Positions 32,083 through 34,483 of a stretch of 64,000 nucleotides of DNA are shown in pieces. Each line of letters begins with the position of its first letter. The stretch's first letter is position 1. The translations under genes were made by a program, and so were the position numbers. The stretch lies in NCBI RefSeq assembly GCF_024978135.1, contig NZ_JANTEZ010000004.1, positions 1 to 64,000 of the forward strand, given 5' to 3'. The DNA is from Herbiconiux gentiana. GTDB taxonomy: Bacteria > Actinomycetota > Actinomycetes > Actinomycetales > Microbacteriaceae. Below the pieces are notes generated by a model, which worked only from the letters and a program-made list of their open reading frames with translations, was not told the origin of the DNA and searched no databases.

Positions 32083-33870
<1,788 letters not shown>

Positions 33871-33887
33871 TCAGCCATCGGCGAACT

Positions 33888-33926
33888 CCGCGACGAGGGA
33901 GGCCTGAGAACTAGGACTCGTCGCGG
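33888..33926 (-). promoter_or_regulatory. leuA attenuator stem-loop
   Basis: On the minus strand CCGCGACGAG (33926-33917), which covers the last leader codons, pairs perfectly with CTCGTCGCGG (33897-33888). The 19-nt loop contains the leader stop codon. A ribosome that reaches that stop would block the stem, and one stalled on the Leu run would free it. How the stem couples to the leuA start 44 bases later is not clear. Confidence 0.6.
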
Positions 33927-33955
33927 CAGCTAAGAAGGAGCAGACCGAACAGCAC
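33911..33955 (-). CDS. leuA leader peptide, leucine-rich
   Basis: The 14-residue frame is MLFGLLLLSCRDES, with five Leu codons (CTG, CTG, CTC, CTT, CTT), two of them the rare CTT. It starts with GTG, lies 67 bases before leuA, and is followed by a stem-loop overlapping its end. Such leaders are known before actinobacterial leuA and act by ribosome stalling on leucine codons. A TAATCT box six bases before the GTG makes a leaderless leader likely. Confidence 0.75.
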   Translation of the reverse strand: MLFGLLLLSCRDES

Positions 33956-33961
33956 GGGCTC

Positions 33962-33989
33962 AGATTAGCACGCCCGTCCGGCGTCACAA
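33962..33989 (-). promoter_or_regulatory. Promoter of the leuA leader transcript
   Basis: On the minus strand TTGTGA (33989-33984) and TAATCT (33967-33962) are 16 nt apart. Six bases separate TAATCT from the GTG of the leader peptide, placing the start of transcription at the leader start codon. Confidence 0.6.
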
Positions 33990-34039: not shown

Positions 34040-34483
34040 ATGACCGTCCTGACCGCCCTGCTCGCACTCGCCGCCCTCGCCGCCCTCACCGCCGTGACGG
34101 TGCTCGTCGGAGTGCTGTGGCGCCGCCGGCAGGGTACGGCCGTCGCGGTCTCGCCCGCTTCGGCGCCGACCGCGATCGACCCGGCGCTCTTCGGCGCCTC
34201 TGCCGACCGGTTCGGCAGCCGGGCGACCCTCGTGCAGTTCTCGACGGCATTCTGCTCCGGATGCCCGGCCACCCGCCGCGTGCTCGGCGAGCTCTCTGCG
34301 CGCACCGAGGGCGTCGAGCACCTCGAGGTCGATGTCGGCGAGCGAGCCGATCTCGTGCGCCGCTTCGCCATCCTGCAGACCCCGACCACCCTGATCCTCG
34401 ACCGGCACGGAGTCGTTCGCACCCGCATCGGCGGGGTCGTCCGCCGGTCCGTCGTCGAGGAGCGACTGGAGGCCCTCCGATGA
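34040..34483 (+). CDS. Membrane-anchored thioredoxin-like protein
   Basis: The 147-residue protein starts with a hydrophobic helix (residues 3-26) and a WRRRQ positive stop-transfer, then a thioredoxin domain with CSGC at 72-75 (FSTAFCSGCPATRR) and the cis-proline segment LQTPTTLILDRHG. The motif CSGC is unusual next to the common CGPC. The domain probably faces outside if the helix is N-in, but a type II orientation is not proven. It is coupled by ATGA to the DUF4395 gene. It is divergent from the leuA leader. Confidence 0.88.
   Translation: MTVLTALLALAALAALTAVTVLVGVLWRRRQGTAVAVSPASAPTAIDPALFGASADRFGSRATLVQFSTAFCSGCPATRRVLGELSARTEGVEHLEVDVGERADLVRRFAILQTPTTLILDRHGVVRTRIGGVVRRSVVEERLEALR

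Follow-up and report, generated by a model that had tools for sequence, protein, structure and literature searches.

Comparative sequence analysis of a probably leaderless LEU element before leuA in Herbiconiux gentiana and of related elements before leuC and leuB

The LEU element before actinobacterial leuA was described in 2005 by Seliverstov, Putzer, Gelfand and Lyubetsky (PMC1262725), whose genome set included Leifsonia xyli. As presented in the available part of that paper, it comprises a leader open reading frame with a Leu run and a pseudoknot to which a hairpin is the alternative; the Leu codons form its base stem with the leuA Shine-Dalgarno (SD) sequence, and the attenuator terminator is reported to be missing. 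The same text cited S. coelicolor codon mutants (Craster 1999) whose behaviour did not agree with classical attenuation and, partly on their account, proposed that a DEAD-box protein (ML1624 orthologs) binds the pseudoknot; Rho was suggested for cys leaders. The S. lividans leuA leader LeuL1 has the sequence MRFGLLLLSCRGEGL, is leaderless in transcriptome data and is described, in the portion of the source available, as lacking a typical Rho-independent terminator (PMC8079986). In the excerpts available, the leuL leaders of C. glutamicum and C. diphtheriae carry four Leu codons in a run before leuA, and a review describes leuL as transcription attenuation (PMC8709942). For the M. tuberculosis leuA leader, Northern blotting is reported to have shown short RNAs 85, 65 and 45 nt in length (PMC3526491).

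The stretch of DNA analysed here (hereafter the window) comprises 64,000 nucleotides of the Herbiconiux gentiana genome. As read from the window sequence, all parts of the feature lie on the minus strand and the leader precedes leuA (Table 1). Because these parts match those described by Seliverstov et al., and a leaderless leader lacking a typical terminator has been published for S. lividans, we classify the feature, on sequence grounds, as a further LEU element. The leader frame reads GTG CTG TTC GGT CTG CTC CTT CTT AGC TGC CGC GAC GAG TCC TAG. Re-reading the sequence reproduced exactly what the initial annotation had claimed, namely a GTG-started frame with five Leu codons and a perfect 10-pair stem enclosing the stop; the stop codon lies inside a 19-nt loop.

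Table 1 Features of the leuA leader in the window (all on the minus strand).
Feature	Position	Strand	Basis
-35-like hexamer TTGTGA, weak and poorly conserved	33984..33989	-	sequence; 21/95 loci match
Extended -10, TGC TAATCT, its end 6 nt upstream of the leader GTG	33962..33970	-	sequence and relatives
Leader ORF MLFGLLLLSCRDES and TAG stop, probably leaderless (GTG at 33955; TAG 33913-33911)	33911..33955	-	window sequence and relatives
Leu codon run CTG CTC CTT CTT	33932..33943	-	codon comparison and fold
Left arm of the 10-bp stem, CCGCGACGAG, overlapping the CRDE codons	33917..33926	-	sequence and alignment
Strand S1 (GUCCU), alternative S2 partner in a small inner hairpin	33913..33917	-	one mismatch in the window
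Strand S2 (UCAGGCC) in the stem loop	33901..33907	-	covariation in relatives
Right arm of the 10-bp stem, CTCGTCGCGG (10/10 pairs with the left arm)	33888..33897	-	sequence and alignment
Strand S3 (GGCUGA), pseudoknot partner of S2	33871..33876	-	author's reading: 6 pairs, one bulged G
leuA SD GAAGGA	33853..33858	-	fold prediction: pairs with the Leu codons
leuA, 2-isopropylmalate synthase, 586 aa (ATG at 33843)	32083..33843	-	NCBIfam

Folding of the window leader revealed no excess stability over shuffled sequences (z -0.96; 32 of 200 shuffles were as good). An Rfam release 15 scan at the gathering score identified two tRNAs in the window and no match to the leader, and a riboswitch, T-box or other Rfam family was dropped on this basis. 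The sole terminator-like site called by a terminator scan of the window lies on the opposite strand, within leuA. An intrinsic terminator or classical transcription attenuator was likewise dropped, since no T-run follows the stem in the window, as the initial annotation had noted, or at 94 of the 95 leuA loci described below. A divergent 147-aa ORF with a CSGCP motif (34040-34483, plus strand), thioredoxin-like by eye, starts 85 bp from the leader start, so that both promoters would share a short intergenic stretch.

Comparison of LeuA among named records placed Herbiconiux closest, followed by other Microbacteriaceae; Leifsonia xyli belongs to the same family as these relatives. Together with 80 loci from named records, the 18 leuA loci of 16 Herbiconiux genomes, including the window's own, gave 98 in total; two of the 18 are second copies. 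Leaving out the duplicates L019 and L020 (same genomes as L006 and L012) and locus L018 resulted in a set of 95. The element was found at 95 of the 96 distinct leuA loci, the exception being L018, a second leuA copy that gave no match to the covariance model introduced below; the 95 include L017, itself a second leuA copy. By eye, the second-copy gene at L018 looks leaderless itself. L017 (genome G015), a divergent copy with 51% identity, has its own element with a perfect 9-bp pseudoknot and an 8-bp helix between Leu codons and SD.

The stem arms form 10 pairs at 92 of the 95 loci and 9 pairs at the remaining three; the leader is 13-20 codons long, and its stop lies in the stem loop at all 95. 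In alignment A1, made of 63 of the 94 distinct sequences hand-picked for spread, the arms were 99.5% paired. The initial annotation had tied its reading to covariation of the stem and to relatives with leuA keeping the Leu run and the paired arms: A1 contained four double-changed pairs in the stem, and both parts were kept at 95 of 96 loci. Two of its suggestions were not retained. The stem over the stop is not special to the H. gentiana genome, being conserved in the relatives examined, and it is not a stand-alone attenuator, but the core of the known LEU element, to which a pseudoknot strand and the base stem of Leu codons and leuA SD also belong; the initial annotation had noticed neither of these two. 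We also observed that the non-coding right arm is almost constant (CTCGTCGCGG at 80/95 loci), perhaps beyond what pairing needs.

In the window, TTGTGA is separated by 16 nt from TAATCT (33967-33962), itself 6 nt from the leader GTG. A promoter scan of the window did not call this promoter, and a -35 hexamer with 4/6 matches at 16-18 nt was found at only 21 of the 95 leuA loci. At 52 leuA loci the leader frame allows a single start codon, and at 50 of these a TAnnnT motif lies exactly 6 nt before it, compared with a background of about 0.001 per position. Across all 95 loci, the spacing from the end of TAnnnT to the start was 6 nt at 85, 7 nt at eight, and 8 or 9 nt at two; as the start codon was chosen partly by this spacing, and set by hand after viewing at nine loci, the 52 loci with a single possible start provide the fair count. 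The 6-nt spacing supports a leader mRNA that is probably leaderless, with transcription starting at the leader start codon. The leaderless start proposed initially is probable from promoter spacing, but it is not peculiar to H. gentiana, the spacing being kept in the relatives examined and S. lividans LeuL1 being leaderless too.

Strand S2 in the stem loop has two possible partners: S1, located at the stop codon, and S3, which follows the stem. In the window the S2:S3 helix is imperfect (six pairs round a bulged G). S2 and S3 changed together in relatives: in Mycetocola AAGCC occurs with GGCTT, in 14 Microbacterium loci GGGCC occurs with GGCCC, and in Pseudoclavibacter soli AAGACC occurs with GGTCTT. 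Three of the five S2:S3 pairs were double-changed in A1 (n = 63), and 69.1% of cells were paired, S3 being misaligned in some rows. Mean S2:S3 pairing was -9.46 kcal/mol with the own partner versus -8.26 kcal/mol with partners from other genera (null sd 0.29), and the lowest of 300 permutations reached -8.94. The own-partner advantage was seen in 24 of 40 genus labels, assigned in this analysis on the basis of record titles for the permutation tests, and was absent in 16. The S1:S2 hairpin had 81.0% of its cells paired and three double-changed pairs, a number reached by 184 of 500 shuffles. These comparisons argue for a pseudoknot between the stem loop and the downstream strand, as in the LEU element; we are less sure of the S1:S2 alternative hairpin.

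The third part of the LEU element, a base stem that joins the Leu codons to the leuA SD, is predicted here from sequence and folding models. The Leu run contains UCCUUC (33939-33934, minus strand), complementary to the leuA SD, and the minimum-energy fold of the window pairs UCCUUC with GAAGGA and UGC with GCA. The last three Leu codons of the 95 leuA leaders comprised 170 CTT, 103 CTC, 11 CTG and 1 CTA; the leuA genes of the same loci contained 125 CTT, 1507 CTC and 2340 CTG among 4184 Leu codons. A single tRNA probably reads both CUC and CUU, so part of this bias could serve tRNA sensing; if it does read both, tRNA choice by itself would not predict the enrichment of CTT relative to CTC. Mean pairing of the Leu run with the SD was -11.4 for own versus -10.15 for foreign partners (sd 0.38), with an own-partner advantage in 28 of 40 genus labels and none in 12.

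Randomly redrawing the Leu codons at leuA codon usage (91 loci) weakened the mean duplex with the SD from -11.14 to -9.46, an effect seen at 70 of the 91 loci and in 27 of 38 genus labels. Pairing no weaker than that of the native leader was retained by an average of 30% of the recoded versions. The mean unpaired fraction of the SD rose from 0.19 to 0.35 (31 of 38 genus labels), and in the window alone from 0.03 to 0.45. A crude mask imitating a stalled ribosome raised SD accessibility at 72 of 95 loci (mean 0.20 to 0.37) and gave no gain at 23; in the window it rose only from 0.03 to 0.20. With a terminating-ribosome mask, mean accessibility stayed at 0.19, yet exceeded the free value at 52 of 95 loci. 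By eye, the right arm and a GACGA stretch near the SD seemed to compete at some loci, but this feature is not kept within Herbiconiux and was dropped.

As almost all of the last Leu codons are CUU or CUC and complementary to the leuA SD, the sensor and the SD lock would be the same bases. We consider it rather likely that a leaderless Leu leader ORF inside a structured 5' leader controls translation of leuA. RNA polymerase would start at or next to the leader GTG, where ribosomes would load directly. When leucyl-tRNA is plentiful, they would reach the leader stop codon and leave; the Leu codons would then pair with the leuA SD, closing the base stem over the 10-bp stem and the pseudoknot, and leuA would remain untranslated. 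When leucyl-tRNA is scarce, a ribosome would stall on the Leu codons, the SD would stay free and leuA would be translated. Loss of the untranslated leuA transcript, by Rho or decay, may contribute. The expectation of the initial annotation that a Leu leader acts through folding rather than simple termination is supported by the kept arms and Leu run and by the lack of a T-run.

The absence of a T-run after the stem at 94 of 95 loci would also suit transcription attenuation without an intrinsic terminator, in which fast completion of the leader exposes untranslated RNA to Rho and a stalled ribosome or the fold protects it. The suggestion of Rho for cys leaders (available part of PMC1262725) and the short 85, 65 and 45 nt RNAs from the M. 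tuberculosis leuA leader (available part of PMC3526491) are consistent with this explanation. We find it unlikely, however: it leaves the complementarity between Leu codons and SD, as well as the choice of CTT and CTC, unexplained.

A covariance model was built from A1, so that its 63 training sequences include that of the window. On the H. gentiana genome, this model scored 98.9 bits at the window element, 96.8 bits at one other place and at most 20.1 bits elsewhere; the weak matches L101 and L102 (20.1 bits) look like coding sequence by eye and were dropped. The second element (G000:C12:510598-510510, minus strand; locus L149, 4511-4599) lies outside the training set, 19 nt before the ATG of leuC. 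Its leader peptide is identical to that of leuA (MLFGLLLLSCRDES); since leuA and leuC leaders differ in several other genera, this identical pair may be a recent copy or result from gene conversion. We conclude from sequence that leuC of H. gentiana is probably controlled by the same kind of switch.

From the matches in 120 genomes of the family, we took the 30 leuC loci with the best scores, a choice that leans to close relatives. The element was upstream on the same strand with at least 60 bits at 26 of the 30 (all except L168, L177, L182 and L190). The leuC start was located beside the element by script at 24 loci; at L165, the leuC match begins about 270 nt away. The -10 spacing was 6 nt at 22 of 26 loci and 7 nt at four, starts being chosen by the same spacing rule. 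The last three Leu codons of the leuC leaders comprised 50 CTT, 24 CTC and 3 CTG, and the leuC genes of the 24 loci 14 CTT, 454 CTC and 333 CTG. Own-partner tests were no more than suggestive in this set (59 of 1000 permutations as good for S2:S3, 80 of 1000 for Leu:SD).

With E values up to 0.01, the model matched 281 of the 296 genomes drawn from the class; with E values up to 0.001, it matched 116 of 120 family genomes. In a phylum sample it matched 26 of 198, nine of these 26 lying outside the class. The strict filters used lose weak matches, and a match alone does not tell which gene follows. We took 33 matches by place (15 + 18), mainly from multi-match genomes and including the H. gentiana leuC element. 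The gene downstream was leuC for nine, leuA-type for 15, leuB for seven and none relevant for two, as assigned by NCBIfam for leuC (L149), leuB (L159, L161, L232) and a leuA-type gene (L224), and by eye for the others. The weak matches L227 and L237, from relatives and two of the 18 extra matches, had no leu gene seen downstream and were dropped.

The seven LEU-like elements before leuB (L159, L161, L232, L234, L236, L238, L239) come from other families and represent five family labels. Three consecutive Leu residues were present in the leaders of 92/94 leuA, 24/26 leuC and 11/12 second leuA-type copies, and in 0/7 leuB leaders, which mix Val, Ile and Leu (Val or Ile in all seven, both in six; e.g. 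MRSVFVLIDCRGEA). At least one Val or Ile occurred in 11/94 leuA, 4/26 leuC and 6/12 second-copy leaders, and both together in 0/94, 0/26 and 1/12, respectively. The -10 spacing before leuB was less regular (6, 7 or 9 nt, none being found in one; n = 7). Five of the seven elements lie 247-356 nt before the leuB start; the longest frame begins 145 nt beyond the element at L234 and 11 nt beyond it at L236, the leuB-like part being further in. Two loci from different families have a tiny ORF between element and leuB, with ARQALQESMD in common (L161, 3623-3721, minus strand; L159, just after the element, translated by eye).

Leader residues thus track the gene served, which points to codons read by a ribosome rather than merely to a protein-bound RNA, although the leuB sample is small and shows a more variable -10 spacing. 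We tentatively propose that the LEU element is a leucine regulon module, a single leaderless switch, read by ribosomes, of which copies stand before leuA, leuC, second leuA genes and leuB. Its sensing codons would act as anti-Shine-Dalgarno, so that codon identity is fixed by pairing, and its residues would be retuned per gene, with Leu alone before leuA and leuC and Val/Ile/Leu before leuB.

The proposal of Seliverstov et al., in which a protein acting in trans masks the SD by binding to the pseudoknot while the leader peptide is incidental, draws support from the right arm, non-coding yet nearly constant as if recognised, and from the cited Leu-codon mutants at odds with classical attenuation (available part of PMC1262725). 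Residues changing with the gene served, as expected if codons are read, and the kept spacing from the -10 to the leader start make this proposal quite doubtful in our view. A chance GC-rich inverted repeat next to a functionless Leu-rich frame would fit the unremarkable fold of the window alone, but is refuted with near certainty by the recurrence of the element at 95 of 96 distinct loci, in 40 genus labels and in 281 of 296 class genomes.

The control of actinobacterial leuA was left open in 2005. The present evidence favours a translational switch that ribosomes read and whose codons serve at the same time as the SD lock; it also extends the element from leuA to leuC and leuB. If the Leu codons are both sensor and lock, Leu-codon mutants in Streptomyces would alter both at once, and this dual role would explain why they behaved unlike classical attenuation. 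A compact leaderless leucine-responsive translational switch, matched across so much of the class, would be useful to understand.

Among known systems, classical attenuators such as the actinobacterial ilvB leaders likewise rely on ribosome stalling at codons for the product amino acid; they have intrinsic terminators, whereas the window leader has neither T-run nor terminator. The C. glutamicum leuL peptide (MTSRANLLLLRRGGSQRS) differs from MLFGLLLLSCRDES, the run of four Leu codons being common to both. LeuL1 of S. lividans (MRFGLLLLSCRGEGL in the available text) and the window peptide are near-identical in different species. With the LEU element, the window leader shares the Leu-run leader ORF, the pseudoknot and the base stem of Leu codons and leuA SD, a likeness drawn from the published description. 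The available text of that paper does not use the word leaderless or name leuB, leuC or leuD, and we recognised no description of a LEU element before leuC or leuB among the literature matches listed, mostly titles and beginnings of abstracts, which is not proof of absence. Beyond the 2005 description, the present analysis places the element before leuC and leuB as well, and adds codon-choice and permutation tests.
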